A stretch of 30,412 nt of DNA from a virus. The DNA is taken from positions 1-30,412 of IMG/VR virus record IMGVR_UViG_3300048508_000314. One strand, 5' to 3'. Numbering within the stretch: position 1 is the first letter of the stretch; each line of letters starts with the position of its first letter. Of this stretch, positions 4,152 to 28,579 are shown one piece after another. Both the position numbers and the translations under genes were made by a program. The notes beneath the pieces are model-generated. The model saw only the letters and a list, made by a program, of their open reading frames with translations, was not told the origin of the DNA and ran no database searches.

Positions 4152-4314
4152 ATTGACTCATTTGCAGTTGCAAGCGATGCTACGGGAGAATAAATTTCCT
4201 AGTAGTGAGTTGTTGTATCTTGGTGAGAGAGATGGAGAACATTATTACTTGATTGGTGGAGAACATGAAGTTCCTGTCTCTGCCATCGTAGATGTAGAAC
4301 CACAAGATGATTGA
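4132..4314 (+). CDS. Small protein of unknown function, cyanophage-type
   Basis: 60 aa from the ATG at 4132; an ATG at 4126 would add two residues. An N-terminal helix (ELTHLQLQAMLRENKF) is followed by a beta hairpin (YLGERDGEHYYLIGG) and an acidic end. This layout resembles a small protein common in cyanophages, but I have no function for it. It overlaps its neighbours at both ends. Confidence 0.55.
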   Translation: MKISQSELTHLQLQAMLRENKFPSSELLYLGERDGEHYYLIGGEHEVPVSAIVDVEPQDD

Positions 4315-4804
4315 TCAGTTTAGAATCAGACCACAAATAGTGATGTATATGAAATCGCTATTGAGATTGTGTCTTTCAACTCCAGAGTTACTAAAAGATG
4401 AGAAACAAAGTTCTTTATCCGACAACTGCTTTGCAACTCTTAACTTATTAGAATTTCCTCATTCTTACATCTTTTATAACTATATTGGAGAATTAAAGCA
4501 AAAAGTTGAAGAGATCCTTAATCTTACTGATCTTGAATATTTCTATTTGCATTTAGTTGACTATACTAATGGTGGTTGTATGCGGGAGCATAGTCATGAT
4601 CATAACGAAGATTATAGTTTTATACTATATCTAAATGATTGTGATGATGGTGCCACAGTGTTATCGTTGGGAGAACCTTATTGTGTTCTTCCTTCTGAGG
4701 GGAATGTGTTAGTTTTTTCTTCTTCCATCCCACATTCCTCAAATTATTCTAAGAGCAAACAAGTTCTAGTAGGTGGACTTAAAGTAAAACAAATGGAGAC
4801 CTAA
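4307..4804 (+). CDS. 2-oxoglutarate/Fe(II)-dependent oxygenase-like protein
   Basis: 165 aa. A histidine-rich EHSHDHNED at 94-102 is followed by SFILYLND, GATVL and GNVLVFSSSIPHSS with the distal H143. This is the double-stranded beta-helix layout of prolyl-4-hydroxylase-type oxygenases. The first metal pair could be H95/H97 or H99-N-E101, and GGLKV near 156 follows the distal histidine. The start overlaps the upstream stop by 8 bases. It is the first of the first oxygenase-oxygenase-radical SAM series. Fold confident, substrate unknown. Confidence 0.72.
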   Translation: MIDQFRIRPQIVMYMKSLLRLCLSTPELLKDEKQSSLSDNCFATLNLLEFPHSYIFYNYIGELKQKVEEILNLTDLEYFYLHLVDYTNGGCMREHSHDHNEDYSFILYLNDCDDGATVLSLGEPYCVLPSEGNVLVFSSSIPHSSNYSKSKQVLVGGLKVKQMET

Positions 4805-5005
4805 ATGGACTTGGATAGCACCACAAAACATCAGAAACGTAAAGATGCGTTTTACATTTTCTATGAAAGTGTATTGAAACCAGACCATGAGTTACGTCAG
4901 GATGCTCATGATCAGGAATGTTATCATGAACTACTAGAATGGCGAGCCGAAATTATTCAGTATTTAGATCAAAGACGCAATGAAGAATTCTACAATAATA
5001 AGTAA
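4805..5005 (+). CDS. Small helical charged protein of unknown function
   Basis: 66 aa, predicted mostly helical (FYIFYESVL, then ECYHELLEWRAEIIQYLDQRR), not recognised. GGAG lies 5 bases before the ATG. The 3' end overlaps the next oxygenase gene by 26 bases, so the two are probably co-translated. Confidence 0.55.
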   Translation: MDLDSTTKHQKRKDAFYIFYESVLKPDHELRQDAHDQECYHELLEWRAEIIQYLDQRRNEEFYNNK

Positions 5006-5600
5006 CGAAAATCTATCGTCTGATGATGATTTTAGTGTTGATACTGATCATTATATAAAAGATTGGGTTATTCCTTTTTACCACGTTAAACTTGGTGATT
5101 GGGAACGTAAAAAGAATGCTCTTTTAAAAATATGGGAGCATAACTCTAAAGATAATATGATCAGTGGTGATCTTCATGATCAATCTACAGATTATGGTAA
5201 TTGTAATAATTATCATAGTTTAATTGAGAATGTTCTTTATGAAGATATTACAGATGGTCTTCATGCATTGAATTTGGGAGAAACTATAACAGTTGATACT
5301 GCTTGGTTCCAAATATATGATAATAGTAGATATCATCCACCACATAATCATGGTTTAGGTCATCTCAGTCTGGTTGTTTTTATCGAATTTGATGAGGATC
5401 ACTTACCAACTACATTTATCGCACCATTCATTAGTTTAAGGGATGGCAATGTGATGGAATACATACCAAAAGGTGTTACAGAAGGATCTATGGTTCTGTT
5501 CCCTTCTGGGATAATGCATTATGCACCAGTTAATCAAATAGAATCTAAGAGAATGATATTGGCAGCAAATCTTACTATCGATGAGGGGAGTAGATGTTAA
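4980..5600 (+). CDS. 2-oxoglutarate/Fe(II) oxygenase-like protein (PF13759-like)
   Basis: 206 aa. HPPHNHGLGHLS (H119, H122, H124) followed by LVVFIEF, then GSMVLFPSGIMHYAP with H180 and R191, matches the putative 2OG-Fe(II) oxygenases (2OG-FeII_Oxy_5 type), which have an HxH rather than HxD first metal motif. Its start lies inside the preceding small gene and its stop overlaps the radical SAM start. It is the second oxygenase of the first cassette. Substrate unknown. Confidence 0.72.
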   Translation: MKNSTIISNENLSSDDDFSVDTDHYIKDWVIPFYHVKLGDWERKKNALLKIWEHNSKDNMISGDLHDQSTDYGNCNNYHSLIENVLYEDITDGLHALNLGETITVDTAWFQIYDNSRYHPPHNHGLGHLSLVVFIEFDEDHLPTTFIAPFISLRDGNVMEYIPKGVTEGSMVLFPSGIMHYAPVNQIESKRMILAANLTIDEGSRC

Positions 5601-6412
5601 AAGTACCACATGAGATTCAATTGCATGTTACTCACTCATGTAATCTTACCTGTGAAGGATGTACTCATTACATGAATCAGGGTCACAGTGGTATGCTTTC
5701 TATTGAAGATGCGACTGAGTGGATGTGGGCGTGGAGGCAGAAGATCATGCCCCAAAGATTTACTCTTATGGGTGGAGAACCTGCATTGCATAATGATTTG
5801 GTTAAGCTTGTGTACTTGACCAGGAAGATGTGGCCAAATTCTTATGTTGAAGTCATATCAAACGGATTTTATTTACATAAACATCCAGATTTATGTGAAG
5901 CACTGAAGAGAACTAGGACAGTGTTGGGAGTATCCGTTCACTCTGACAATGATCCTGATTATGTCAAGAAGTTTGAACCAGTATATCGACTGGTAAGAGA
6001 CTGGATGGATGCGGGTGCTGAAGTTGAGTTAAGACCATCTATTCAGCATTGGATTAGACAGTATAAGGGTTTTGGTGATAAAATGGAACCCTATGAGGAT
6101 GAGAATCCTAAGAAAAGTTGGAAGCATTGTGTATCTAAACTATGTGTTCAGTTGCATGAAGGAAAACTTTGGAAGTGTCCTGCTTTAGCATATCTTCCTA
6201 TGCAGGCAGATAAGTATAATTTAAGTGATAAGTGGGATCCATATCTCAAATATGTTCCTCTTGACCCTGAGTGTAGTAAGGAAGAGTTGCGTGACTTTTT
6301 CACTCGTAGGGAAGAATCATTTTGTAAAATGTGCCCTGCAGATTCCCATTACTTCTCTCCCGAAAATCCATTGTTACCTGTGAGTTACTGGAAGAAGAAA
6401 TATGACACTTAA
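5594..6412 (+). CDS. Radical SAM protein with extra C-terminal iron-sulfur site (copy 1)
   Basis: 272 aa. The radical SAM [4Fe-4S] motif C16-x3-C20-x2-C23 (CNLTCEGC) is followed by GGEP at 60-63, which binds SAM. The C-terminal part has more cysteines (C179, C184, C195, C227 and C244-x2-C247) arranged like a twitch/SPASM auxiliary cluster, as found in enzymes that modify peptides or carbohydrates. A strong Shine-Dalgarno GAGGGGAG precedes the ATG. It overlaps the upstream oxygenase and the downstream one. A close paralogue lies at 8971-9822 with identical N-terminal cysteine positions and the shared C-terminal phrase WDPYLKY. No RiPP precursor is obvious nearby. Confidence 0.88.
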   Translation: MLKVPHEIQLHVTHSCNLTCEGCTHYMNQGHSGMLSIEDATEWMWAWRQKIMPQRFTLMGGEPALHNDLVKLVYLTRKMWPNSYVEVISNGFYLHKHPDLCEALKRTRTVLGVSVHSDNDPDYVKKFEPVYRLVRDWMDAGAEVELRPSIQHWIRQYKGFGDKMEPYEDENPKKSWKHCVSKLCVQLHEGKLWKCPALAYLPMQADKYNLSDKWDPYLKYVPLDPECSKEELRDFFTRREESFCKMCPADSHYFSPENPLLPVSYWKKKYDT

Positions 6413-7163
6413 ATTAAATAATGATCAAGAAGAGATGGTTATTAAACTTGCGGAAAGATCAAGGACAGCACCATCTGTTCGATTGGATGAAATTATTTCT
6501 GATGAGTTCATAAGGACTTTTAGAAGACCAAAAAATGAACCAGTTACTAATGCTCAGGATTGGATTGATAAGAGAGATGTAGTTCATTTTGACTTCTCTG
6601 GTAATATGATATATCGAGCATATAATTTGTTAACCCCCCATGTTCAAAATGAGATTGAGGAAGATATTGATGATGAACTACGTGCTGGTGATAAGTGGGA
6701 TAGATCTGTAGAGGCAACAAATAATCTTGCTAATAGAACGTTGTGGTACAAGTCTAGTTGGTATATATTTTTTTCATTAGTAAAAAAACATTTATACAAT
6801 TATGCAGACACCGTTGGTAATCCTCAAATAAAAGATTATAAAGTCGCTTCATACTGGTCAAAGAGGATGAAGGGGACTAATGATGAGGATTATAATGATC
6901 AATTGTATCCAAACTATAAGAATTCTCATAGTCATGATGATTTTGATTTGGGTATGATTTATTACCTAAGAAATCCTTCTAGAATTTATGGGACATTGAT
7001 TGAGAATAATGATAGAGAGATAATTCTTCCTGGAGACGAAAATTCTTTACTTATACACCATTCTAATGTAAATCATCAACCTGTTATGCCACAACCGATA
7101 GTTGCTAATAAAGCACATCGTTGTGTAATTGTTGTAGACTTTAAACATAAATCAAAGTTATGA
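6402..7163 (+). CDS. 2-oxoglutarate/Fe(II) oxygenase-like protein
   Basis: 253 aa. SHSHDDFDLGMIYYL contains the metal motif H178-D-D180; a strand with GTLI follows, then PGDENSLLIHHSNVNHQP supplies a distal histidine (H219, H220 or H225), with R240 as a candidate 2-oxoglutarate binder. The N-terminal 150 residues are helical and charged, without a recognised domain. It starts 11 bases inside the radical SAM gene and ends in an ATGA overlap, so it belongs to the same operon. Substrate unknown. Confidence 0.7.
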   Translation: MTLKLNNDQEEMVIKLAERSRTAPSVRLDEIISDEFIRTFRRPKNEPVTNAQDWIDKRDVVHFDFSGNMIYRAYNLLTPHVQNEIEEDIDDELRAGDKWDRSVEATNNLANRTLWYKSSWYIFFSLVKKHLYNYADTVGNPQIKDYKVASYWSKRMKGTNDEDYNDQLYPNYKNSHSHDDFDLGMIYYLRNPSRIYGTLIENNDREIILPGDENSLLIHHSNVNHQPVMPQPIVANKAHRCVIVVDFKHKSKL

Positions 7164-7393
7164 ATGCATACGATAGGATTAAGTATTTTAGTGTGGTAAA
7201 TAAGATTAATCAGGGAGAATTCAACTCTCTTGATCATGATGAAATTAGATGGTTACAGGAACATCCAGAGTTAATTACTAATATGAAAATTGAGAGGCAT
7301 AAGCGAGATATTATTCGCAAATGCCCTGGTAAAAAAGATACTGTGGAAGAAATCTTGTTTTTACTTGATTTGTCAGATAGTATGTATAGGTGA
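7160..7393 (+). CDS. Small charged protein of unknown function
   Basis: 77 aa, helical, with conserved-looking LDHDEIRWLQEHPEL in the middle and a C-terminal EEILFLLDLSD. Not recognised. ATGA overlap with the oxygenase upstream. Its stop TGA (7391-7393) doubles as the TGn of an extended -10 promoter for the HNH gene. Confidence 0.55.
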   Translation: MNAYDRIKYFSVVNKINQGEFNSLDHDEIRWLQEHPELITNMKIERHKRDIIRKCPGKKDTVEEILFLLDLSDSMYR

Positions 7394-7399
7394 TATAAT
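7370..7399 (+). promoter_or_regulatory. Sigma70-like promoter with extended -10 for the HNH nuclease gene
   Basis: TTGTCA at 7370-7375, an 18-base spacer and TATAAT at 7394-7399 preceded by TGA. The TGA is also the stop codon of the upstream gene. Transcription would start near 7406, 14 bases before the HNH start codon. Confidence 0.65.
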
Positions 7400-7419
7400 G
7401 TCCCAAAGAAGTAACTTGT

Positions 7420-7896
7420 ATGGAGCACTTAAAAATACAACCATATCAGACTGTTTTAGTTCTAAATTCGAGTTACGAACCGATAAACTTCACTAACTGG
7501 AAGAGGGCGGTTATTCTTGTATTGAAGGATAAAGTTCAAGTTCTATCTGGTAGAGTAATCCGACTTGTCAACTATATTAAAATACCGATTAATCGTTTGA
7601 TGGTCGGTCGTCCTTCAAGATCACTGATTTATAAACGTGATCGTAATACTTGTCAATACTGTGGATCAACTACAAGACTAACTATTGATCATGTCATTCC
7701 TCGCAGTAAAGGTGGAACTGATACGTGGGAAAATTTGGTTGTTGCTTGTTCTAAGTGTAATACTGAGAAGAGTGACAAATTATTGGAGAATACACGGCTA
7801 AAGATAAGTCGTAAACCAAGGGCACCATATAATTGTGTTGCTTTTGATTTAGCAAACTGTAATGTTCCTGAATGGAGGGAATATGTCTACAACTAG
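7420..7896 (+). CDS. HNH endonuclease
   Basis: 158 aa. Zinc-binding C78-x2-C81 and C110-x2-C113 frame the core with D90-H91 and N105/N114. The core reads TIDHVIPRSKGG, the classic HNH (HNH_5 / McrA-like) nuclease fold. The N-terminal VLVLNSSYEPINFTNWKRA is the extension typical of a widespread bacterial and cyanobacterial HNH family rather than of group I intron homing enzymes. It has its own promoter and splits the oxygenase/radical SAM block into two halves. It may be a free-standing mobile nuclease gene or may act on host DNA. Weak Shine-Dalgarno. Confidence 0.88.
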   Translation: MEHLKIQPYQTVLVLNSSYEPINFTNWKRAVILVLKDKVQVLSGRVIRLVNYIKIPINRLMVGRPSRSLIYKRDRNTCQYCGSTTRLTIDHVIPRSKGGTDTWENLVVACSKCNTEKSDKLLENTRLKISRKPRAPYNCVAFDLANCNVPEWREYVYN

Positions 7897-7906
7897 GAGT
7901 TTTTAA

Positions 7907-8467
7907 ATGTTTTATCGTAAGTTAAATAGAAAGTTTACCATTGAGCATTACGCTAAGAAGGGCAAAAAAATTGAATATGGTATGGATACACCTATGGGAT
8001 TCATGGGTATTCAGTATTCTTATGTTCATACAACCAGTGATGAAGATTTGCTGAGGGTTGTTCCTTCCAAGAACAGGGAGGATTGTACATTATCTGTGAT
8101 GGAACTCAATTATAAGATTCCTCCACACACTGATAGTGATATTGAAGCAATAGTAAACTTCTATATTAAAACTGATAAATGTATTACACAGTTTTATTAT
8201 CCTAATGATAATCTTGATGCTGTAGCAGAAGGGGTTGATACTCAGACTGATGGTGCTGTTTTTCATGAAGGTCACTTAAAGAAGTCAGTTAGATTCATGG
8301 CACAGGATGGTGATGCATATCTTTTAGATGTATCAAAACCACATTCTGTAACTCCAACTGGTGGATCAAACATGACAGATCGTAAGTGTATTTGTATGCA
8401 GATTCTTTATAAATCTTTTGATGAAGCAGTCAAAATGCTAACGGAGACAGGATATATTGATGATTGA
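7907..8467 (+). CDS. 2-oxoglutarate/Fe(II) oxygenase-like protein (HTD motif)
   Basis: 186 aa. The metal motif H74-T-D76 (IPPHTDSD), a following strand AIVNFYIKT, and GDAYLLDVSKPHSVTP with H146, then R159, give the complete facial triad and a 2-oxoglutarate arginine. This is the layout of aspartyl/prolyl hydroxylase-like enzymes. AGGAG at 7895-7899, overlapping the HNH stop codon, precedes the ATG by 7 bases. It starts the second oxygenase-oxygenase-radical SAM series. Substrate unknown. Confidence 0.75.
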   Translation: MFYRKLNRKFTIEHYAKKGKKIEYGMDTPMGFMGIQYSYVHTTSDEDLLRVVPSKNREDCTLSVMELNYKIPPHTDSDIEAIVNFYIKTDKCITQFYYPNDNLDAVAEGVDTQTDGAVFHEGHLKKSVRFMAQDGDAYLLDVSKPHSVTPTGGSNMTDRKCICMQILYKSFDEAVKMLTETGYIDD

Positions 8468-8981
8468 AGTCATTGATGATTACTTAGACACAGAATTGCA
8501 TAGTGATTTGTATAATTACTGGACGGGTAATTATGATAATGGTGATATCGCTAATTCATGTGTATGGACATTCAATAATGGCATAAATTCTCCTGGTGAT
8601 GGACATTCTCAATACATTCATTTAATTTTTTCAAAACATCAAATAATTAGTAATGCATATAACAATGTAGAACCAATAATTCATAAGGAGGACATGAGTG
8701 CTATTGCTAGAATAAAGGCAAATGCTATCAGTAGAACTGATAAATTAACTGTATTTGATTGGGCATTTCATTGTGATTTTGGTCCTCATGCTAATAATAT
8801 GATCACAGCAATATATTATGTCAATACTAATGATGGATATACTTTATTTGAGGATGGTACTAAAGTAAATAGTATTGCAAATAGATTTGTAAAATTCCCT
8901 GCTACTATGATGCATACTGGTACGTCATGCACTGATGATTACAGGAGAATAATTATTAATTTTAACTATTATGCAATTTAG
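8460..8981 (+). CDS. 2-oxoglutarate/Fe(II) oxygenase (HCD motif)
   Basis: 173 aa from the ATG at 8460, which lies 8 bases before the upstream stop; a TTG at 8457 is less likely. H104-C-D106 (WAFHCDFGP), MITAIYYVNTNDGYTLFEDG, then FPATMMHTGTSC with H152 and RR at 162-163 followed by IIINFNY are the metal triad and 2-oxoglutarate arginine of a cyanophage-type oxygenase family. It resembles prolyl-hydroxylase-fold proteins that are abundant in marine T4-like phages. It overlaps the radical SAM gene by 11 bases. Confidence 0.82.
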   Translation: MIEVIDDYLDTELHSDLYNYWTGNYDNGDIANSCVWTFNNGINSPGDGHSQYIHLIFSKHQIISNAYNNVEPIIHKEDMSAIARIKANAISRTDKLTVFDWAFHCDFGPHANNMITAIYYVNTNDGYTLFEDGTKVNSIANRFVKFPATMMHTGTSCTDDYRRIIINFNYYAI

Positions 8982-9822
8982 CACTAAGCAATTAGAATTT
9001 CATGTAATACATAACTGTAATTTTACTTGCGAAGGATGTTCTCATTATTCTAATCATGGACACTCTGGTACAATAGACGTAGACATTGCTACAGAATGGC
9101 TATATAATTGGAGTCGAAGAGTAAAACCAAAACACTTTGTTATATTGGGTGGAGAACCTACGCTCCATAAAAATCTTGTTGATATGGTATACATGGTCAG
9201 GATGATGTTTCCTGATCCATATACTAAAATAGATCTAGTATCTAATGCATCGTTCTTACATAATCACCCAAGACTTCCAGATGCTTTACGTGCTACTGAT
9301 ACAACTTTAGCAATATCAATACATAGCACAAAAGATTTAAATTACGCTAAACGAATTAAAAAGGGATACACTCTAGCAAAAGAGTGGAGGCATTCAAATA
9401 AAGTAAGAGTAGAGTTTTGGGACTTTACTAACAAACATTGGATACCACAATATACTGGATATGGTAACAATATGATGCCGTATGAAGATAACAATTCCTA
9501 CCAAAGTTGGAGTAATTGTGTGTCAAAACATGCATTACAATTACATGAGAATAAATTGTGGAAATGTCCAGCACTTGCATATTTACCAATGCAAGCAAAA
9601 AAGTATAATTTGAGTGAGAAGTGGGATCCTTATTTAAAGTATAAACCATTAGATATTGATTGTACGGATGAACAATTGCAGGAGTTTTTAAGTAGAGAAG
9701 ATGAATCCTATTGCTCAATGTGTCCTGCAAATCAATTAGAACCAATCATCAAAAAAGATCCAACATTACCAGTTAGTTATTGGGAGAGAAATTATGATAA
9801 CATGGGGGATATCATCGAATAG
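8971..9822 (+). CDS. Radical SAM protein with extra C-terminal iron-sulfur site (copy 2)
   Basis: 283 aa. C16-x3-C20-x2-C23 (CNFTCEGC) and GGEP around 60 mark the radical SAM core. The C-terminal cysteines match copy 1 (5594-6412), including C-x2-C in YCSMCPA, but one cysteine of copy 1 (its C184) is replaced here by alanine. Shared segments such as LWKCPALAYLPMQA and LPVSYW show recent common ancestry. The gene is visibly more AT-rich than the first window kilobases. It overlaps the oxygenase upstream and the carbamoyltransferase downstream (29 bases), which suggests a linked pathway. Confidence 0.88.
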   Translation: MQFSTKQLEFHVIHNCNFTCEGCSHYSNHGHSGTIDVDIATEWLYNWSRRVKPKHFVILGGEPTLHKNLVDMVYMVRMMFPDPYTKIDLVSNASFLHNHPRLPDALRATDTTLAISIHSTKDLNYAKRIKKGYTLAKEWRHSNKVRVEFWDFTNKHWIPQYTGYGNNMMPYEDNNSYQSWSNCVSKHALQLHENKLWKCPALAYLPMQAKKYNLSEKWDPYLKYKPLDIDCTDEQLQEFLSREDESYCSMCPANQLEPIIKKDPTLPVSYWERNYDNMGDIIE

Positions 9823-11218
9823 TCATAATGCTGCATTGGCAGTATTTTCTAATGATTCTCTCATGTTTGCTTCTGAGAGTGAACGTTTTAGTAGAACAAA
9901 GAACGATCCATATATTCATGATTCTCTCACATTTTATGCATTAAAATATGGGCAACCTGATCTTATTTGTTGGTATGAGAATCCTCTCCGCAAAAGATGG
10001 AGACAGATTAGATCGGGTCAAGGTCCATTCATAGATAACTTCACCAAGTATTTTAACTGTAAGCATAAATTTGTTGATCATCACTATAGTCATGCTTGTG
10101 CTGGATACTATACTAGTAAGTTTAAAGACTGTGCTATACTTGTGATCGATGCCATTGGTGAGTTCCAAACACTTAGTATATGGAAGGCGACTGAAAATGC
10201 AATTGAATTAAAGTATGAGTTAAAGTATCCAAATAGTATTGGACTTTGGTATTCAGCGATGACTCAAAGAATTGGTTTAAAACCCAATGAAGAAGAATAT
10301 ATTTTGATGGCATTGTCTGCTTATGGTGATAGAACAAAACTTACTCGAAAGATACTTGATGATTTGATTGGTGTTGATTTAAAATCTAAGCGCAATTTTC
10401 ATCGTGGATGTCTTGATTGGGCACCAGGAGAGAGTGATGAGGATATTGCCGCTGCAACACAACATGTATATGAAAACTTATTTGCAACTGCTTTAAATAA
10501 GGCGAAGTCTCTTACTGATAGTAATAACTTAGTTTTGATGGGTGGTTGTGCATTGAATTGTGTTGCAAATATTCGTGCATATGATTATTTTAAAAATGTG
10601 TGGATTATGCCAGCACCAGGAGATTCTGGTTCTGCAATTGGTGCAGTATTGGCACATAAAAAGAAGAAGATAAATTTTACACCATATCTTGGATATAAAA
10701 TTCTACAGAGAAGTTTAAATAGTAATATTGTTAATTACTTGCAGGAGAATAAAGTATGTGGATTGGCGAGAGGTAGAGCAGAGTTTGGACCAAGAGCATT
10801 AGGTGCTAGGAGTCTTATAGCAGACCCAACTAATCCAGGTATAAAGGATAGGGTAAATGAGATTAAAAAGAGACAATCATTTAGACCATTCTCCCCAGTG
10901 GTTCCTATTGAATATGCTTCAAAATACTTTGATATGCATGATGATCTTGTAGAAAGTCCTTACATGCAATATGCAATGAAATGCAAATTACCAGATAAAC
11001 TTCATGGTGTTGTACATGTTGATGGTACTAGTAGGGTGCAAACTGTGAGGAAGTGTGATGCACCAAAATTGCATGATTTACTTTTACGTTGGGGACAAGT
11101 ATCTGGTCACCCAATTCTTCTGAATACTAGTTTAAATGTTAAGGGAGAACCGATTGTTAATGATGAATATGATGCTCAGAGATGGTCTCAATTGAATGGT
11201 GTTGAAGTATTTTCATGA
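9794..11218 (+). CDS. Carbamoyltransferase, NodU/TobZ/CmcH family
   Basis: 474 aa. Such enzymes make carbamoyl-AMP from carbamoyl phosphate and ATP and pass the carbamoyl group to a hydroxyl. N-terminal ASKHA domain motifs: SHNAALAVF at 10-18, HHYSHACAGYY (metal-binding histidines), LMALSAYGD, GGCALNCVAN and PAPGDSGSAIGAVL. C-terminal YrdC-like domain motifs: EFGPRALGARSLIADP, FRPFSPV and LLNTSLNVKGEPIV. It is about 100 residues shorter than usual family members but keeps both domains. It starts inside the radical SAM gene and ends in an ATGA overlap with an SGNH-like gene. The acceptor could be a sugar hydroxyl, as in Nod factor or antibiotics, or a hydroxymethylated base. Confidence 0.9.
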   Translation: MITWGISSNSHNAALAVFSNDSLMFASESERFSRTKNDPYIHDSLTFYALKYGQPDLICWYENPLRKRWRQIRSGQGPFIDNFTKYFNCKHKFVDHHYSHACAGYYTSKFKDCAILVIDAIGEFQTLSIWKATENAIELKYELKYPNSIGLWYSAMTQRIGLKPNEEEYILMALSAYGDRTKLTRKILDDLIGVDLKSKRNFHRGCLDWAPGESDEDIAAATQHVYENLFATALNKAKSLTDSNNLVLMGGCALNCVANIRAYDYFKNVWIMPAPGDSGSAIGAVLAHKKKKINFTPYLGYKILQRSLNSNIVNYLQENKVCGLARGRAEFGPRALGARSLIADPTNPGIKDRVNEIKKRQSFRPFSPVVPIEYASKYFDMHDDLVESPYMQYAMKCKLPDKLHGVVHVDGTSRVQTVRKCDAPKLHDLLLRWGQVSGHPILLNTSLNVKGEPIVNDEYDAQRWSQLNGVEVFS

Positions 11219-11949
11219 ATAATTTATTACCAGCTACAGAAAGTGGATATCCCCCATATCATTTTCATGATAATGATAGTGAAGAATTATTTAAAAAAAA
11301 TTTAAAAACTCAGGGTCCTGATTGGGAATATCGTAACAAGTCTATCAAATATACCATGAACAGTTTGGGATATAGGACTTTGGAGTTTGATAAAATACGA
11401 TGGGATCAAACCGTAGTGATGTTTGGATGTTCAAATACTTTTGGAATTGGAGTAAATGTAAAGGATAGTGTTCCTGCACAATATAGTAATATTACTGGTA
11501 TTCCTGCAATCAATCTTGGAGTTCCTGGATGTAGCGCACAATATCTTCTGTATAATAGTGCAATTTATTTAAAAAACTTTCCTAAACCAAGGGGGGTGGT
11601 AATTGAATATCCAGATTCTTCTAGGTGTACTTTATTTTTGCCTGAAAGGACTGATGGTTTTATGCCAGTTAATTGTGGAAATTGGACAGAAGATATTAGT
11701 GGGTTGGGAAAAGCATGGAGAAGATTTGATGTAAATGTGGTAACACATTTAAAACTTATAAGGTTAACCTTGCAACAAATGTGGAGTGATGTTCCATGTG
11801 CTGAGTATCATATATTCCCCTCAAACTGTAGAATACTTCCAGAGTGTAAGTACATAGACCAAATTGATTATGCAAGAGATTTAACTCATCCAGGATCCAA
11901 AACGAATCAAATTTCAGCAAATTATATTGCAGAGACTTTAAATTTGTGA
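11215..11949 (+). CDS. SGNH/GDSL-family hydrolase-like protein
   Basis: 244 aa. The nucleophile block is FGCSNTFGIG with S73, an NLGVPGCSA block follows near 105, and the C-terminal DLTH gives D222 and H225 of the catalytic triad. The oxyanion asparagine block is not clear. SGNH enzymes remove or add acyl or other ester groups on glycans and lipids, which would suit a partner of the carbamoyltransferase it overlaps by 4 bases. The stop TGA is part of the extended -10 of the next promoter. Function in the cell unproven. Confidence 0.72.
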   Translation: MNNLLPATESGYPPYHFHDNDSEELFKKNLKTQGPDWEYRNKSIKYTMNSLGYRTLEFDKIRWDQTVVMFGCSNTFGIGVNVKDSVPAQYSNITGIPAINLGVPGCSAQYLLYNSAIYLKNFPKPRGVVIEYPDSSRCTLFLPERTDGFMPVNCGNWTEDISGLGKAWRRFDVNVVTHLKLIRLTLQQMWSDVPCAEYHIFPSNCRILPECKYIDQIDYARDLTHPGSKTNQISANYIAETLNL

Positions 11950-12714: not shown

Positions 12715-12908
12715 CTAATTACGATTTTGAATTTAAAAGCCTTGATGAGCGTATTGCTCACCTTGAGGAGCAGGTAAAATTTTTAGAAATGGAGAGAGTT
12801 GAGACAATCAACTCTATGTACCATCTTGAGAATAATTTATCAACTAAAATTGACAAATTATCAACTACAAAATATAATTTTGACAACTACACACTCGGAG
12901 ACAAATGA
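12711..12908 (+). CDS. Small coiled-coil protein
   Basis: 65 aa. A heptad-like helix ERIAHLEEQVKFLEMERVE at about 13-31 continues to residue 50. Not recognised. It is coupled by ATGA to the basic peptide upstream and to talC downstream. Confidence 0.55.
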   Translation: MTNYDFEFKSLDERIAHLEEQVKFLEMERVETINSMYHLENNLSTKIDKLSTTKYNFDNYTLGDK

Positions 12909-14281: not shown

Positions 14282-14845
14282 ATGGCAACGCAATTAACCG
14301 CCACTGGGGTTACCTTTAATGACGGTACGTCTATAACATCGAAATATTCTGTACTTGCTCAAAATACAGTTAGTGTATTCTATCAAGCATCAGCACCCAC
14401 TGGATGGAGTCAAGTTACTGCTCATAATGATAAAGCACTGCGTTTGGTGAATGGGACTGGTGGTGGATTTGGATATGGTAGTCAATCTGGAGGAGGTGGT
14501 AATACCTTTACTCAGACTTTTCCATCGTCAACGTCTTCCGTTAGTGTAAACTATAGTTCTACTGTTCCAGTTAGTGGAACTGTTGGTGGTCACATCTTAG
14601 CAATTTCTGAGATACCTGATCATACACATAATTCTCTTATTGGACAATCTGCTAGTGCATCTACTGGTAGTGGTAACTTTAGAACTTCTGGTTCTAACCA
14701 AACTGGTGGTGTGACTTCACAGGTGGGAATTGGGCAGGCACATGATCACCCTTGGAGTGGTAGCATTAATTTTAATGTAAATGGATCTGGAAGTATTGAT
14801 TTACGTCTTCAATACATCGATGTAATTATCTGCAGATTTAGCTGA
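14282..14845 (+). CDS. Tail fibre / tail-collar-like protein (copy 1)
   Basis: 187 aa, Ser/Gly/Thr-rich. VFYQASAPTGWSQVT and KALRLVNGTGGG resemble the phage tail-collar (gp12-like) domain; PDHTH and HDHPWSG give HxH pairs like those that bind iron in the T4 gp37 tip; the end QYIDVIIC closes a trimeric beta domain. It probably sits on a fibre or baseplate and contacts the host surface. A paralogue follows after one base, and the late-type promoter ahead fits a virion protein. It is shorter than true long fibres, so it may be an accessory tip. Confidence 0.75.
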   Translation: MATQLTATGVTFNDGTSITSKYSVLAQNTVSVFYQASAPTGWSQVTAHNDKALRLVNGTGGGFGYGSQSGGGGNTFTQTFPSSTSSVSVNYSSTVPVSGTVGGHILAISEIPDHTHNSLIGQSASASTGSGNFRTSGSNQTGGVTSQVGIGQAHDHPWSGSINFNVNGSGSIDLRLQYIDVIICRFS

Positions 14846-14846
14846 T

Positions 14847-15401
14847 ATGGCAAGATTAACAGCGAACGGAATAGATTTTGATCTACTGGATCCAAATAAT
14901 AGGATTAACAGTTTTTACTGGCAATATCCTGCAGGAACAAAGAAGGTATTTTATCAAGCAGCAGCTCCTGTAAAGTGGACACAAGATACTAGTTCTAATA
15001 ATAGAGCACTTCGTGTTGTAAACTCTGCTGGAGGTGGTACTGGAGGTGTACAGAATTGGACTACTGTATTAAAATCAACAGCATCACTCGCAGTGGCATT
15101 ATCAGGAACATTTCCTGTAACTGGTAGTGTTGGTAATCATACACTGTCACTTTCACAATTACCTGACCATACCCACCCGAGTCTTTTTGGTCCAGCAGGT
15201 GGTGCTGGTTCTACACCATTTAGTAATACTGGTGTTAGATTGACATCTGGCACCAACGCTACTGGTACTATGGTTCCTGCTGGTGGTGGTAGTGTCCATA
15301 ATCACCCTTGGAGTGGGAGTGCAGTAGTAAATGAGAATACTGATCTTGTAGTTGATTTGGGTGTTCAATATATCGATGTAATAGTTTGCAGTTTGAACTA
15401 A
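14847..15401 (+). CDS. Tail fibre / tail-collar-like protein (copy 2)
   Basis: 184 aa, clearly homologous to the gene before it: VFYQAAAPVKWTQDT, RALRVVNSAGGG, LPDHTHPS, NHPWSG and the closing QYIDVIVC align one to one. The middle repeat region differs, as expected if the two recognise different targets or form a hetero-oligomer. The HDH of copy 1 is HNH here. Stop TAA lies just before the next promoter. Confidence 0.75.
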   Translation: MARLTANGIDFDLLDPNNRINSFYWQYPAGTKKVFYQAAAPVKWTQDTSSNNRALRVVNSAGGGTGGVQNWTTVLKSTASLAVALSGTFPVTGSVGNHTLSLSQLPDHTHPSLFGPAGGAGSTPFSNTGVRLTSGTNATGTMVPAGGGSVHNHPWSGSAVVNENTDLVVDLGVQYIDVIVCSLN

Positions 15402-15769: not shown

Positions 15770-16800
15770 AAAAATTTACTTTAATCGAAGAAGATAGGTA
15801 CATCAACATTGATGGAAAAGGTATCTGGTTTTCTGAAGAAGATTGGCCATTTAAAGGAATTGACCATCTTTGGGCAATTCAGTGGAAGGATGATGGATCT
15901 GAGAATGGTGTTGGTCATATTGAATATGATTCTGCTGACAGACAAAACGATCCAGTAACAAAAGAATGCCTTCAACGTTACGTTGAATTGTGGCAAGATA
16001 CTGTTGAAAAGCAAGAACAAGAGGAAAAAGCACAATCTGAGCAAGAAAAAAAAGATCAATATTCTTGGTCTGAGGCAATGCGAGAGCTTGAAACTCAGAT
16101 GGAAGAAATGCAAGCACGGCATGATAAAACTCTGAAGGAAAATCTATCTCAAGATAGGATGTTGTATGATAAGTTGCAACTACAAGTGCGCGAACAAGAA
16201 GAACGTCATGCCTCTTCTATCATGGATATGATGAGAGAAGCAGAGAGTGATAGAAGTTTATATAATGAATTGACTTCAGAAATGCATGGTCAAGAAGTTA
16301 GGCATGAAGAAGCACTTAATGAAATGTTGGTGGATCATGACCAACAGATGGAGACTGTTCATAACGAGATCACCCGTCAACATGAAGAGTTGTTTTATGG
16401 GCAAGACATTGTTGAGGGTCAGGAAGCAACATATACTAATAATGTAAAATACGATAATATTACTTTATTTGATGGTAATGTTGATGATAGTTTGTTTGAT
16501 GATGTAATTGAAGATAGTCACTTTGCTGATGAACCAATTCCTTTAGATGAAGATACTGATGCAAAAGATGAACTTTCAACATTACTTGCAGAACAGGAAT
16601 CACAAGAACCTAAAAAAGACTTCAACGATGTTGATATGTCTGTACTTGACGATGAATTTAACTTAGAATTATTATTTGATGATGATTCTGATGAACAAAT
16701 TGTTGCTGAGATTGAAGAATTGATATCTGTGGATGATACTGGAATAGTATTGGAAAGTCTAGTTCAAGAAGTGAGTGATGATGAATCAAAAACTGATTGA
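15766..16800 (+). CDS. Long coiled-coil protein with very acidic C-terminus
   Basis: 344 aa. An N-terminal domain (residues 1-80) contains DGKGIWFSEEDWPFKGIDHL, and a segment of this type occurs in other phage hypotheticals. Residues about 80-220 form a Glu/Gln-rich coiled coil with His-containing repeats (QARHDKTL, QEERHASS, QEVRHEEAL, QHEELF). Residues about 230-344 are extremely Asp/Glu-rich. It may be a scaffold, a DNA mimic or a binding partner of the conserved N-terminal domain; none is shown. An A8 run at 16046-16053 lies in the coding sequence. The 3' end overlaps the two-domain oxygenase. Confidence 0.7.
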   Translation: MKKFTLIEEDRYINIDGKGIWFSEEDWPFKGIDHLWAIQWKDDGSENGVGHIEYDSADRQNDPVTKECLQRYVELWQDTVEKQEQEEKAQSEQEKKDQYSWSEAMRELETQMEEMQARHDKTLKENLSQDRMLYDKLQLQVREQEERHASSIMDMMREAESDRSLYNELTSEMHGQEVRHEEALNEMLVDHDQQMETVHNEITRQHEELFYGQDIVEGQEATYTNNVKYDNITLFDGNVDDSLFDDVIEDSHFADEPIPLDEDTDAKDELSTLLAEQESQEPKKDFNDVDMSVLDDEFNLELLFDDDSDEQIVAEIEELISVDDTGIVLESLVQEVSDDESKTD

Positions 16801-17941
16801 GAACAAGTATCTTCTTGTTCCTAACTTTATATCATGCTCAAGAGCAAAAGAGTTATCTGATAATTTTAATTCGCATTACAAACAGTTTGAGACTGTGCAT
16901 GATCCTCAAGTGGATGGATGCATTGCAAAATATGATTTTCCACCATTTATTGAATTGTTGGTAGAGAAAAATCAAACTGTGTGTCAGTTGGTGGGGGAGA
17001 ATGTCTTACCAACATATTGTTATTCTAGGAATTATCGCCATGGTAACATACTTACTGGTCATGTAGATAAACCTCAATGTGAAATCTCTTTGACTGTAAA
17101 TTTGGAGTGTGATAAGGTATGGGATATATGGATTGAGACCCCACAGGGTAGAGAATATGTTTCTCTAAACCCAGGTGATGCTATGTTATATCTTGGTATG
17201 GATGCACAGCATGGTAGAGATTCATTTGATGGGGAATCATGTACTCAGGTATTCTTGCATTATGTTAGATCGCAAGGACCATTTTTTAAATATTATTTTG
17301 ACAAAGACCACAGATATCGTGATGATGAACTTAAAAAAGAGGTGATCGAAGTAAAGGAAGTGGATAACTCTCAATTTGCATCAAATAGTTTGAATGATTA
17401 TGTCAAAGTATATAATAATATCTTTACACCAGATGAGTGTAAGATGATTCTTGATGAATATGTTCATTGTAGTGAATGGGAGACTGCAAAGGTAAGTTCT
17501 GATGCAAGAGAGAATAGAGATGTTCGCAATTGTGACATGATATCCATCTCTACGCCTGATGTCATTAAAAACGATCCTAATAGAGTTAATATTGATCAAC
17601 TGATATTTAAAAAAGTAGATCTTGCTGCTAAATTATATGCAAAAGATTTCCCATCGTGCTTTTTAAAAGAGGATAGTGGGTATAATCTACTAAGGTATAA
17701 AACTGGTGGTTTTTATAGTCAACATACTGATAGTTTTAATGAACAACCTCGTACAGTAGCAATGTCTATTAATCTTAATAGTGATTATGAGGGTGGTGCT
17801 ATGGCATTTTGGAATAAAGAACTACAAATAATGGTTGGATTGGGAGATGTAATACTGTTTCCTGCCAATTTTATGTTCCCACATGAGATTATGGAAGTTA
17901 CAAATGGTACACGTTACTCTATTGTAACTTGGTTCACTTGA
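16778..17941 (+). CDS. Tandem 2-oxoglutarate/Fe(II) oxygenase, two prolyl-hydroxylase-like domains
   Basis: About 386-387 aa; ATG at 16778 or 16781. Counting from 16781, domain 1 has H94-V-D96 (TGHVDKPQCEIS) and distal H144 (DAQHGRDSF). Domain 2 (residues about 205-386) has H315-T-D317 (YSQHTDSF), distal H368 (PHEI) and R378. Both metal triads look intact, so two active sites are likely. Domain 2 follows the prolyl-4-hydroxylase pattern closely (GGAMAFW, GDVILFPANFMFPH). Such double enzymes could hydroxylate two sites of a substrate or two different substrates. The gene overlaps the coiled-coil gene, and its stop is followed at once by a promoter. Confidence 0.85.
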   Translation: MMNQKLIENKYLLVPNFISCSRAKELSDNFNSHYKQFETVHDPQVDGCIAKYDFPPFIELLVEKNQTVCQLVGENVLPTYCYSRNYRHGNILTGHVDKPQCEISLTVNLECDKVWDIWIETPQGREYVSLNPGDAMLYLGMDAQHGRDSFDGESCTQVFLHYVRSQGPFFKYYFDKDHRYRDDELKKEVIEVKEVDNSQFASNSLNDYVKVYNNIFTPDECKMILDEYVHCSEWETAKVSSDARENRDVRNCDMISISTPDVIKNDPNRVNIDQLIFKKVDLAAKLYAKDFPSCFLKEDSGYNLLRYKTGGFYSQHTDSFNEQPRTVAMSINLNSDYEGGAMAFWNKELQIMVGLGDVILFPANFMFPHEIMEVTNGTRYSIVTWFT

Positions 17942-20362: not shown

Positions 20363-21430
20363 ATGAAAGTTGGAATTATTGGACTTGGACGAATGGGTGA
20401 AGGAATGTCCCGTCGTCTTATTACAGCAGGACATGAAGTACATGGATATCGCAACAACTATAAAAAATCTGAAGAGCAATATGAAGCGGGTTATATCAGT
20501 GGATGTACCACTTCTGTGGAAACTCTTGTTCAAGTAGTAAAACAAAAAGAATGTATCTACGGAGAGAAGTCTGGAGAAACAATCTATACAGAACAACCAG
20601 GCATCTTTATGATGGTTGTCCCAGCAGAATCAGTAGAGGATACGTTAAATGAGTTACTACAATTTTGTGGTGAAGGAGATATTATTATTGATCATGGCAA
20701 TAGCAATTTTAAGGACAGTAGGAGACGGGCAGAGTATTGTTCAAAGTTGGGTGTCGCGTATCTTGACTGTGGTACTAGCGGTGGTGTTTACGGTTTGGAG
20801 CGTGGATACTGTCTTATGGTTGGTGGTTCAGATCATGCAGTATCCATCTGCCGTTCTCTCTTCGATGCACTTGCTCCAGGAATCAGTGCTGCCCCACGCA
20901 CAGGGGATGGTTCCTATGTAATGTACCCAGAAGAATTCGGTTGGATGCATTGTGGTGATCCTGGAGCAGGACATTTTGTGAAGATGGTTCACAATGGCAT
21001 AGAATACGGTATAATGCAAGCATATGCAGAGGGATTCAACATTATCCATGAAGCAAATGCAGGTTCTAAGTATGTCAAAGCAGGAGATGCCGAGGTCGCC
21101 CCAATGGACAACCCTGCCGATTATCAGTATGATATTAACGTTGCTAAAGTGGCTGAGTGTTGGAGGCGCGGTAGTGTCGTTGGCAGTTGGTTACTTGATC
21201 TTACCGCTGATGTTCTACGCAGCGATAGAGAACTTAGCAAGTTCGATGGGGGAGTATCAGACTCTGGTGAAGGGCGTTGGACTGTTCACGCTGCTGTGGA
21301 TCTTGGTGTACCCGCTCCTGTCATCAGCAGTGCGTTGTTTGCACGTTTTGAGTCGCGCCGTCTTGGTGCTTTCACTGCCAAGGTTCTGAATGGTATGCGA
21401 GCAATGTTTGGAGGACATGATGTCCGATAG
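20363..21430 (+). CDS. gnd: 6-phosphogluconate dehydrogenase, decarboxylating
   Basis: 355 aa, close to the short bacterial class. It oxidises 6-phosphogluconate to ribulose 5-phosphate and CO2, making NADPH. The N-terminal Rossmann fold GIIGLGRMGEG is at 4-14; DHGNSN, DCGTSGGVYGLERGYCLMVGG and the catalytic lysine in GHFVKMVHNGIEYG are all present; C-terminal SGEGRWT also fits. Cyanophages carry it as an auxiliary gene with talC, and both occur here about 7 kb apart. This gene looks richer in G+C than its neighbours, in line with acquisition from a host. A 13-base perfect palindrome (21413-21425) lies at its 3' end. Confidence 0.95.
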   Translation: MKVGIIGLGRMGEGMSRRLITAGHEVHGYRNNYKKSEEQYEAGYISGCTTSVETLVQVVKQKECIYGEKSGETIYTEQPGIFMMVVPAESVEDTLNELLQFCGEGDIIIDHGNSNFKDSRRRAEYCSKLGVAYLDCGTSGGVYGLERGYCLMVGGSDHAVSICRSLFDALAPGISAAPRTGDGSYVMYPEEFGWMHCGDPGAGHFVKMVHNGIEYGIMQAYAEGFNIIHEANAGSKYVKAGDAEVAPMDNPADYQYDINVAKVAECWRRGSVVGSWLLDLTADVLRSDRELSKFDGGVSDSGEGRWTVHAAVDLGVPAPVISSALFARFESRRLGAFTAKVLNGMRAMFGGHDVR

Positions 21431-23092: not shown

Positions 23093-24148
23093 ATGTATAT
23101 TCTTTGCGATAATAATCCATCACAATTTAATTTTGATTTAGGATTTGGTAGTAGGTTGTTTGCTTGGGCACAAGCATCTAAGTTTGCTGATAGCAAAAAT
23201 CTCACTATTGTACTACCGTCTGATGAATGGATTGAGCATATTATGCTTGATCTACCTAATACTGAAGTTTGGGATAGGTATGATATTAACCAACATGAGT
23301 GGAAGAATATAGTTCTAGAGGGTGAGATTGATGTATCATCTTCAACATATTTGCGTATTGATGGAACTTGTAATATGAAGACATATTCTCCATCTAAAGA
23401 TGATGTTGAATATCTTCAGACAATTACATTTAAAGAATCCAAGTTAAATGAGTTTTTTAATAGATTTAATTTTGATTGGGGATTTCATTTAAGGAGGTGG
23501 GGAGGAATAAAGTTGCGCCCAGAGTCTGCAATTAAAGTGTTGAATACTCTTCCTAATAGGAATATTAAAGAATTATATTGGAATATGATTCTACGTTGTG
23601 GATTTAATAAAGATCCTAAAGAACATGATCCGTCGTGGATATGTGATCAAACATATTATCAATTTTTGGATATGATTGTTGATCATATAGGAGATAAATC
23701 AACAATCTATTTGAGTACAGATATTCCTGATGATTTGTGTGATTATTACCTAGAACAATATCCAATGATGGTGTCTAGGATTGAATATACTGATGAATGG
23801 TTGGATTTATTTAAAGAATATTATCCAGTAGATTCTGTGACTATCTTAACTGACCACAATACACCTACTGGTTTTTCTCAATCACCCAAGACTGAATGGT
23901 ATAAAACTACACTTAAGGATGTTGCAATAGATTTGCTCGACTTCTTTATGCTTGCACGTTCTAATATGTTCTTGTTATCGGAATATTCCCAGTGGGGTTT
24001 TGCTGCAAAGAGATATGCTTCTGCCGCAGAAGATAACATGTTTGTCATTTCAAGTTCTTCTAGTATCAATGATTTGGGCAATTTATTGGGTGTAGATGAA
24101 ATAATTGAGAGTTTTGAAGATTTGCAACTTGATGAGTTGTTAGAATAA
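23093..24148 (+). CDS. Fucosyltransferase-like glycosyltransferase (1)
   Basis: 351 aa. GFGSRLFAWAQASKFA near the N-terminus, GFHLRRWGG (about 131-139), IYLSTD and a C-terminal block DFFMLARSNMFLLSEYSQWG resemble the GDP-fucose-using GT-B enzymes (NodZ/FUT8/GT11-type). In these, an H-x-R-R motif binds the sugar nucleotide and a late S-x-(Y/F)-S-x-W(G) block closes the site. It would add a deoxysugar or related sugar to a glycan. It overlaps by one base with a second, more divergent copy. Confidence 0.68.
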   Translation: MYILCDNNPSQFNFDLGFGSRLFAWAQASKFADSKNLTIVLPSDEWIEHIMLDLPNTEVWDRYDINQHEWKNIVLEGEIDVSSSTYLRIDGTCNMKTYSPSKDDVEYLQTITFKESKLNEFFNRFNFDWGFHLRRWGGIKLRPESAIKVLNTLPNRNIKELYWNMILRCGFNKDPKEHDPSWICDQTYYQFLDMIVDHIGDKSTIYLSTDIPDDLCDYYLEQYPMMVSRIEYTDEWLDLFKEYYPVDSVTILTDHNTPTGFSQSPKTEWYKTTLKDVAIDLLDFFMLARSNMFLLSEYSQWGFAAKRYASAAEDNMFVISSSSSINDLGNLLGVDEIIESFEDLQLDELLE

Positions 24149-25131
24149 TGATTATTAGATATCGCCATGAGAACGAAAGCGGCAGAGGAGTTCCTCATCC
24201 ATGGAGAGACAGTAGTGTTGAAGAATACTACAATAATCCCCTATCGGATGAATATGATAAAAATGATCTTGGGATTGGAGAACGTTGGAACAGTTGGTTA
24301 GGTGTTTACAATCTTGTCAAATTAAACAAGATGGAACATAGAATACAATGTATGAGAAAACAATTTCCAGAATCAATTCTCTTTAAATTCCCACAAACTG
24401 ACTTTGTTAGTGATGAAGAGTTTTATTCTGGTATTGACCAATTTAAATGGTTTACTCCCAAAGAATATGATGTATTATCATCTCCAGCACATTCTAATAC
24501 ATTTAAAACTATTGCCAGGAGTTACCCTTACATTTTTGTCAATCATGGCAATTCATTTGCTCATCTGTGGAATGATTTTTTATATATTGAATCCTCTTTT
24601 TTTGAATCGGAAAATGATTTGAGATCTTTGTTCTCCGATTATGTTAGTGTTCATGTAAGGAGATATCATGGTATTTGTTATACTGATGAAGATTTAATTG
24701 AATTGTCTGATGATCTCAAAGAACAATATAAAAATGGGGCATATTACAATTCTTGTGGATATTGGAGATATGTGAAGGATAAGGATCATTTTGAATATAT
24801 GAATACATTCAGCAATGACCAGAAGTTTTATGTTGCAACAGACTTGGATGATAAGTATTATCTCAGCAACTGGACAAAACACTTCCCTGGTCGTATAGTT
24901 ACTGGTAAAGATGTCTATTCCAAATTCATGAGCATTCTCAGTTCTCACCATGGTAAAGACTTTGTTAATGCCAATACTAGATTGATCTATCAAATGATTG
25001 ATTTTTTTGCATTAGCATATTCAAAATGCATTGTAGCAGGTCACTATAAGAGTTCTTCTGTATCTTCTTATACAATAGCTGCTCAGAAATTTGGTGATAA
25101 CTATATTAATCGATTTGTAGTGGGCGATTGA
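24148..25131 (+). CDS. Fucosyltransferase-like glycosyltransferase (2)
   Basis: 327 aa. VSVHVRRYHG (about 166-175), FYVATDLDDKYYLSNW and the C-terminal MIDFFALAYSKCIVAGHYK then SSSVSSYTIAAQKFG mirror the motif order of the gene before it. The N-terminal part is different and lacks a clear G-x-G-x-R start. The start overlaps the upstream stop, so a paired or heteromeric function is possible. Sugar donor and acceptor are unknown. Confidence 0.62.
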   Translation: MIIRYRHENESGRGVPHPWRDSSVEEYYNNPLSDEYDKNDLGIGERWNSWLGVYNLVKLNKMEHRIQCMRKQFPESILFKFPQTDFVSDEEFYSGIDQFKWFTPKEYDVLSSPAHSNTFKTIARSYPYIFVNHGNSFAHLWNDFLYIESSFFESENDLRSLFSDYVSVHVRRYHGICYTDEDLIELSDDLKEQYKNGAYYNSCGYWRYVKDKDHFEYMNTFSNDQKFYVATDLDDKYYLSNWTKHFPGRIVTGKDVYSKFMSILSSHHGKDFVNANTRLIYQMIDFFALAYSKCIVAGHYKSSSVSSYTIAAQKFGDNYINRFVVGD

Positions 25132-27454: not shown

Positions 27455-28579
27455 ATGAAAAAGATTAGATTAAGTCAATTATATTCTGCAAGTGGTACTG
27501 GATTGGGATATCAGATCTCATCTTATATTATGATGCGTAATCTAGAAGGAACCACCAATAGAGTTTGGGAGGTTGGTAATAATTCATATAAAGCATTTAG
27601 AAATACATTTTCCAATGAGATTAATGTAGTCCCTGATTATAACAAGGTAAAACCTGACAAAATCCTGTCTTTGGATGATGAAATTGGATTTAATGAATTG
27701 TGTGTTCAATTAGAATCTGATAAAGATATTGAATTGATTGAGTTGGACATTTATCCAACACCTAAAAACATTACAAGTCCATCTTCTCCATTATTCTCTT
27801 CTTTGAAGAGGACATTGACATTTAAAGATGATGTATATACTGCTGCACATGATTTTAGATCCAAATTTGATGGTGAAGTCATTGCTATGCATGTTCGTAG
27901 AGGTGATTTTGCAGACATTGCAAATGGTATGTTCCTATGCGGTGAAGATTACTTTAATGATGCATTGTCTAGATTACCACAAGATCTGCCAGTATTGATC
28001 TTCACTAATGATAAAGATAGTGTAATTTCTGATCATGCATTGATTGCGAGTGATCCTGCTCGGTTTACATTTGTCACTGATTTGTATAATGATAATGAGT
28101 TATCTGATTGTGATTATGGTCAAGAATTGGATAGGTTAGTTGATATTAATGGTAATTGTAGATTTGATTATAAAATGGCACTTGCAGAGATTGTAAAGAG
28201 GGAGATGGGCATGGTTCCTCCATATGATGTCTTGAAGAAGGAGATGAAGAGGATTATATCTGAATTGTCACCAGTATACACACGTAAATTAAAAAAGAAT
28301 CTTTACAACTATTCTGTTGACCTCTGCTTGATGACGATGTGTGATCATCACATTATTTCTAATAGTACATATTCATTGTGGGGAACTGAATTGTCAGGTT
28401 TAACAAAACAAGTAGTCTACCCTAAATATTGGATGCAGGGACATGAAGATGACATGACCCTAAAAACCGATCTTGGTGATTATGATCAAACAAAAGATAT
28501 TGCTCACTTGTTTGTATCTAAACCAAATTTTCAAGGATTGGCAAATCCTGATCCCCGTTCATTTATCGTTGTAAATTGA
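27455..28579 (+). CDS. GT11-like alpha-1,2-fucosyltransferase-like protein
   Basis: 374 aa. GTGLGYQISSYIMMRNL at the N-terminus (G-x-G-N/Y-Q), AMHVRRGDF (about 144-152), VLIFTND and a C-terminal CDHHIISNSTYSLWGTELSG match the ordered motifs of GT11 fucosyltransferases, which transfer fucose from GDP-fucose. It is the closest of the three copies here to a known family, and about 70-80 residues longer than a typical GT11 enzyme. It lies 6 bases after the oxygenase and is probably in the same operon. Confidence 0.78.
   Translation: MKKIRLSQLYSASGTGLGYQISSYIMMRNLEGTTNRVWEVGNNSYKAFRNTFSNEINVVPDYNKVKPDKILSLDDEIGFNELCVQLESDKDIELIELDIYPTPKNITSPSSPLFSSLKRTLTFKDDVYTAAHDFRSKFDGEVIAMHVRRGDFADIANGMFLCGEDYFNDALSRLPQDLPVLIFTNDKDSVISDHALIASDPARFTFVTDLYNDNELSDCDYGQELDRLVDINGNCRFDYKMALAEIVKREMGMVPPYDVLKKEMKRIISELSPVYTRKLKKNLYNYSVDLCLMTMCDHHIISNSTYSLWGTELSGLTKQVVYPKYWMQGHEDDMTLKTDLGDYDQTKDIAHLFVSKPNFQGLANPDPRSFIVVN

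Follow-up and report, generated by a model that had tools for sequence, protein, structure and literature searches.

A conserved gene cassette of cyanophage-related viruses as a candidate pathway for tailoring sugars

What would a virus do with a tightly packed run of putative iron oxygenases, radical SAM proteins, a carbamoyltransferase and an SGNH-like protein? The question is raised by positions 4307-11949 of the virus record IMGVR_UViG_3300048508_000314 (IMG/VR), which we analysed over a 30.4 kb stretch covering positions 1-30,412 (hereafter the window). The genes of this cassette lie, like tf1, tf2 and the glycosyltransferase genes of the window described below, on the plus strand in the order OxA, h66, OxB, RS1, OxC, h77, HNH, OxD, OxE, RS2, CT, SGNH, where RS1 and RS2 are the radical SAM proteins, OxA to OxE the oxygenases or oxygenase candidates, and CT the carbamoyltransferase. 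On balance, and with moderate confidence, we propose that the cassette encodes a phage pathway in which a sugar is oxidised, hydroxylated and carbamoylated, on the pattern of late aminoglycoside-type antibiotic synthesis, and that the product is probably a virion glycan. A preliminary description of this DNA had read the cassette as a duplicated system for decorating peptides, glycans or bases, an interpretation that our results support in part.

Conservation and duplication

The cassette is real, far beyond what chance would produce. Its gene order recurs in ~30 other viral loci with reading frames maintained, and dN/dS is low, at ~0.1 for RS1, RS2 and OxC and 0.16 for CT. Because these loci had been found by means of the radical SAM proteins, we repeated the search from OxC and found a radical SAM gene within ~6 kb in 58 of 60 OxC loci; many of these contigs are near-copies of one another, but three different arrangements are represented. 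The genes therefore do occur together in related viruses. Every open reading frame named in the preliminary description is present, together with two small conserved genes that it had omitted (4805-5005 and 7160-7393), and the near-universal gene overlap it reported is borne out, with eight of the 11 junctions from OxA to SGNH overlapping by 4 to 29 bases and one abutting. The sole gaps in this run are the two that flank the HNH gene.

The viruses that carry the cassette are uncultured phages of one family, with relatives among the phages of marine cyanobacteria. The window holds the cyanophage marker genes for transaldolase (at 12905) and 6-phosphogluconate dehydrogenase (at 20363), the latter with 79-83% DNA-level identity to cyanophage copies. 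A search for Gp23 (PF07068) intended to place the lineage returned no match, as did its control, and is uninformative.

The preliminary description had also proposed that an oxygenase-oxygenase-radical SAM unit was duplicated as a whole. Clear duplication is confined to the radical SAM genes. RS1 and RS2 are 50% identical, have the same four extra cysteines and are separated in the tree by a branch with 99/97 support, by which sequence comparison they are true paralogues in separate clades, as had been claimed, and indicate that the radical SAM gene doubled before the lineage spread. The flanking oxygenases do not pair up in the same way, since by profile-profile comparison OxB and OxC are unrelated to OxD and OxE beyond, at most, the superfamily. 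The best residual of that comparison was a weak similarity between OxA and OxE, both of which match PHROG 274. We thus reject duplication of the three-gene unit, and the window does not contain the same cassette twice. Some relatives carry a third radical SAM gene preceded by an OxE relative and followed by two OxC relatives, on which ground an OxE-radical SAM-OxC module may be ancestral.

Separable modules do exist within the cassette. In loci L164-L170 the recovered flank shows only RS2-CT-SGNH-SGNH ahead of the tail-fibre-like genes tf1 and tf2. The 246-kb record from which L165 comes again has this module without RS1, with an OxC relative several kb upstream. RS1 is absent in L006-L008 and L022-L023, and CT in L035-L038. 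Of 80 loci collected with the SGNH protein, 50 have its gene immediately after CT and three immediately after this radical SAM gene, and in 16 the gene just before it encodes a radical SAM protein of another family (motif CNYxCSYC; the NCBIfam model STM4011 is nearest).

A rare bacterial homologue of the radical SAM protein (L045:7986-8822), 39% identical, lies between flagellar and NAD-synthesis genes in a metagenome-assembled genome whose flanking genes are unlike those of Marinimicrobia. A bacterial origin of the gene was considered and rejected: this is a single distant copy, and the remaining 288 genomes of that class have none.

Predicted enzymes and their substrate

The radical SAM proteins carry most of the argument for a sugar. 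Both RS1 (5594..6412, 272 amino acids, Pfam 1.5e-12) and RS2 (8971..9822, 283 amino acids, Pfam 3e-10) are of the twitch type. Their radical SAM site, CX3CX2C, comprises C16, C20 and C23, which are invariant in 29 sequences and numbered identically to the corresponding cysteines of BtrN. Four further cysteines, C183, C199, C248 and C251, are invariant and align with those of SpeY, which works in spectinomycin synthesis; they would be enough for full ligation of one auxiliary cluster with four cysteine ligands. A profile search against the PDB matched SpeY along the full length (1e-14) and aligned all seven cysteines, and an AlphaFold2 model of RS2 (pLDDT 82) likewise has SpeY as its best match (Foldseek E 1.7e-11; Z 20.9 over 244 residues at 3.0 A), ahead of BtrN (Z 13.6), SuiB (13.1, a tie with BtrN) and SkfB (12.8). 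The PDB title of SpeY is that of a twitch radical SAM dehydrogenase, and BtrN oxidises a cyclitol alcohol with an auxiliary cluster that has four cysteine ligands, against three in MoaA (PMC9012708). The best explanation of the model and alignments is that RS1 and RS2 are SpeY-like twitch radical SAM dehydrogenases, predicted to oxidise an alcohol to a ketone. They have in common with SpeY (spectinomycin) and BtrN (butirosin) the fold, the CX3CX2C site and, by prediction, a single auxiliary cluster with four cysteine ligands, and differ from them in being viral, only ~20% identical, and present as two paralogues embedded among oxygenases.

CT (9794..11218, 474 amino acids) is an O-carbamoyltransferase of the TobZ/NovN/NodU family. 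Both of its Pfam domains are present with their conserved motifs (PF02543 and PF16861; 2e-41 for the N-terminal and 5e-50 for the C-terminal domain), and it matches PHROG 1601 at 5e-99. The closest PDB chain is 9s2t, a decarbamoylnovobiocin carbamoyltransferase (8e-46, motifs in common), and CT stands nearest to the antibiotic-tailoring enzymes of novobiocin, GdmN and TobZ. TobZ, GdmN, NovN and NodU share both domains and the motifs with it, although CT is ~100 residues shorter than TobZ and has radical SAM and SGNH genes as its partners. The TobZ residues W408, G421 and R423, singled out for 5-hydroxymethylcytosine carbamoyltransferases, have no reliable placement in CT and were not used. As a separate observation, in two distant viruses the halves of a carbamoyltransferase are encoded by separate genes beside ThyX, and the gene for the C-terminal half comes before that for the N-terminal half (L041:10549-12026 and L054:4058-5757).

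The last gene of the cassette (11215..11949, 244 amino acids) had been described as SGNH hydrolase-like. It has no Pfam match and no match among isolate phages, but its AlphaFold2 model (pLDDT 87) adopts an SGNH fold and S73, N100, D222 and H225 are invariant, giving the serine, aspartate and histidine with the glycine and asparagine blocks expected of such proteins; we predict a hydrolase or acyltransferase. Homologues in other phages (L171, L188-L204) directly follow a radical SAM gene of a different family, with twitch radical SAM genes (NF033640) near, and we describe these loci as a wider, unexplained class of phage radical SAM islands.

The oxygenases are less uniform. OxB (4980..5600, 206 amino acids) is securely a 2-oxoglutarate (2OG)-Fe(II) oxygenase of the PF13759 type, with a Pfam score of 34.2 bits against a cut-off of 27 (3e-8) and a match to PHROG 81 at 1.5e-25. 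OxA (4307..4804, 165 amino acids) and OxE (8457..8981, with an ATG start at 8460) are probable members of the same class by their sequence motifs. Their Pfam matches, at 5e-4 (2OG-FeII_Oxy_3) and 1e-4, fall below the curated cut-off; H95/H97/H99, H143 and K151 of OxA (PHROG 274/81) are invariant in 18 sequences, and H105xD107...H153...R164 is conserved in OxE (PHROG 274, 6e-36). OxC (6402..7163, 253 amino acids) and OxD (7907..8467, 186 amino acids) are probable iron oxygenases of unnamed families, judged from conserved histidine and arginine patterns: HxH...H...R in the OxC of cassette members and H74xD76...H146...R159 in at least 90% of OxD sequences. The motif is broken in the OxD of L005 and in one distant OxC relative (L051:10049-10702). 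Neither protein matched a profile in Pfam, PHROG or NCBIfam or gave a credible sequence match among solved structures in the PDB, and OxC had no match among isolate phages. The names given earlier to these genes are accordingly borne out by Pfam for the radical SAM, CT, HNH and OxB proteins and weakly so for OxA and OxE; for OxC and OxD, which match no profile, the name is read from motifs.

PHROG 274 is named "DNA endonuclease V" in cyanophage records. Given that the Pfam match and motif of OxE point to a 2OG-Fe(II) oxygenase, this label is probably an annotation error carried across those records.

Homologues of the cassette genes repeatedly occur among sugar genes. In the cultured cyanophage S-SCSM2R a radical SAM gene 43-46% identical to those of the cassette overlaps a short relative of DegT/StrS aminotransferases and is surrounded by glycosyltransferases, 2OG oxygenases and an amidinotransferase that matches streptomycin StrB1 at 1e-60, an arrangement retained in two further metagenome contigs. 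To oxidise, transaminate and amidinate is the logic of aminocyclitol antibiotics. Since h66, h54, h76, h121, g111, Ox2 and HNH lie near this gene as they do around the window cassette, the two loci are syntenic. The DegT/StrS relative itself (L040:11399-11983) is very short, at 195 amino acids, and keeps the lysine and GG motif with the C-terminal part absent. Genes for GDP-mannose dehydratase, GDP-fucose synthase, GT11 and GT6 come directly after, or lie near, the members of a third radical SAM clade, most of which also have OxC and OxE relatives close by. In the virus G002 the N-terminal family of CT is matched six times, and a sugar kinase, a cytidylyltransferase-like gene and an epimerase stand next to two of those matches. 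In the single-cell virus AG-345-D19 a radical SAM gene overlaps a CT gene. In cultured S-SCSM1, a T4-like cyanophage, CT stands among 2OG oxygenases, GDP-fucose genes and fucosyltransferases; this sugar cluster resembles the window cassette in pairing CT with 2OG oxygenases, but has neither a radical SAM dehydrogenase nor an SGNH gene annotated.

Together with the SpeY-type fold, these sugar-nucleotide and glycosyltransferase operons make a sugar the likeliest substrate, so that of the peptides, glycans or bases listed in the preliminary description the decoration-type enzyme set stands and its target is narrowed to sugars. A virion glycan would be the likeliest product because the tail-fibre-like genes tf1 and tf2 (14282..15401) follow in those cassette loci that reach so far, and tf1 shares 45% identity with the S-SCSM1 protein annotated as tail fibre; we infer that tf1 and tf2 are candidate carriers of the modified glycan.

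The gene content, the predicted radical SAM fold and its cofactor residues, the CT and SGNH motifs, purifying selection, co-occurrence and the sugar neighbourhoods of homologues are what we observe; which substrate is used, in what order the steps occur and what part of the virion receives the product we infer, in the scheme below. In RS1 and RS2 the SAM-bound cluster would generate a 5'-deoxyadenosyl radical that takes a hydrogen from the C-OH carbon of a sugar or cyclitol, and the four-cysteine auxiliary cluster would accept the second electron to leave a ketone. The non-haem iron oxygenases might hydroxylate, desaturate or epimerise other positions, and CT would use carbamoyl phosphate and ATP to place a carbamoyl ester on a sugar hydroxyl, while the SGNH protein could add or trim an acyl or carbamoyl ester. 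The glycan itself would be made by glycosyltransferases whose genes lie in other parts of the genome, and these would attach it, most likely to a virion protein such as tf1 or tf2 just downstream, where it might protect the particle or tune host binding. That the lineage as a whole runs an antibiotic-style line, placing keto, hydroxyl and carbamoyl groups (in S-SCSM2R also amino and guanidino groups) on a phage-particle glycan, is plausible, if somewhat less likely than not.

Competing readings

Several points weigh against sugar tailoring. The cassette itself has no glycosyltransferase or sugar-nucleotide gene, the nearest one assigned by profile lying 15 kb downstream; the L059 relative has a radical SAM gene without sugar genes nearby; and some relatives lack RS1, OxB, OxE or CT, so the steps are not all needed together. 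Identity to SpeY is low, twitch folds serve other substrates too, and the oxygenase identity of OxC and OxD is read from motifs.

Peptide modification is an unlikely alternative, and the best of the rivals. Here the radical SAM proteins, oxygenases and CT would modify a ribosomal peptide or the side chains of a virion protein, as in ribosomally synthesised and post-translationally modified peptides (RiPPs), and the SGNH protein would release the product like CgnD in crocagin synthesis. CgnD, the hydrolase that releases the crocagin core, is indeed the best structural match of the SGNH protein, but at Z 13.6 it ties with generic GDSL esterases at 13.0. The available part of the crocagin report describes a 2OG dioxygenase, an SGNH-fold hydrolase and a carbamoyltransferase together (CgnC, CgnD, CgnI), as in the window, and also a precursor peptide, of which none was recognised here; that part describes no radical SAM enzyme (PMC10070186). 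In other phages the genes of SGNH homologues adjoin those of radical SAM proteins from different families, and RS2 resembles the peptide maturases SuiB and SkfB, but the SpeY match is far better. A SPASM maturase would have two auxiliary clusters and ~seven C-terminal cysteines, against the one cluster predicted from the four further invariant cysteines of RS1 and RS2. Neither a transporter nor a protease is seen in the cassette, and no precursor was recognised, the small open reading frames h66 and h77, considered for that role, showing no leader-core pattern.

Somewhat less likely still, the product might be a free carbamoylated metabolite, or the genes might alter lipopolysaccharide of the host and not the virion. 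Cyanophage GDP-fucose and glycosyltransferase genes have been read as cell-wall modification genes (PMC9602691). The constant location directly before tail-fibre-like genes favours the virion, as an argument from position.

2OG oxygenases can hydroxylate bases, and a pathway in which they and the radical SAM proteins make or extend a hydroxymethyl base, and CT carbamoylates 5-hydroxymethylcytosine or a related base, is very unlikely. A phage 5-hydroxymethylcytosine carbamoyltransferase of the same superfamily has been demonstrated biochemically, but it is paired with a thymidylate-synthase-like hydroxymethylase, and in that study the carbamoyltransferases of unmodified contigs adjoin glycosyltransferases (PMC8670742); our search of 11 related records, mostly fragments, found neither a hydroxymethylase of this family (PF00303; ThyX only) nor a C5-cytosine methylase (PF00145), and this route was rejected. 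Both DNA carbamoylation and peptide modification are weaker rivals to the sugar.

Neighbouring genes and wider meaning

The HNH endonuclease gene (7420..7896; PF01844 1e-17, PHROG 16726 1e-55) stands alone and is probably a mobile insertion outside the pathway, given the gaps on both sides and its presence in some relatives and absence in others. It is missing in one clade (L030-L038), where h77 directly precedes OxD, and is thereby ruled out as a pathway component. The small protein h66 (4805..5005, 66 amino acids; PHROG 495, of unknown function) occurs in most loci and in S-SCSM2R, and h77 (7160..7393, 77 amino acids), which has no PHROG match, is kept in the lineage. Further downstream the window encodes a GT11-family, fucosyltransferase-type glycosyltransferase (27455..28579; PF01531 2e-9, PHROG 2644 glycosyltransferase 8e-29) and, tentatively, two glycosyltransferase-like genes (23093..25131) recognised by inspection of the sequence, with no Pfam or PHROG match. 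A two-part protein kept downstream of the cassette (16775-17941) has a C-terminal 2OG-Fe(II) oxygenase domain and is labelled "ferrochelatase" in PHROGs. At the start of the window two adjoining N6-adenine methylase-like genes (20-1832) bear, one, an NPPY and, the other, a glycine-rich motif, and several relatives have up to ~2 kb of extra DNA between them.

The preliminary description knew of no phage pathway with this gene set, and our search of open-licence papers likewise found none described. Until its product is known, we file the cassette as a variant of phage decoration pathways and not as a new category. 2OG oxygenases whose role is unknown are numerous in cyanophages, with as many as 24 in S-SCSM1 (PMC9602691). 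Host nitrogen metabolism has been the usual explanation for them until now, and the operon described here offers a testable alternative in glycan tailoring. If the proposal is correct, many unexplained cyanophage 2OG oxygenases would be glycan-tailoring enzymes, viruses of this kind would offer radical enzymes that modify carbohydrates from a new source, and the decorated glycan could account for how aquatic phages protect their particles or for the hosts they infect.

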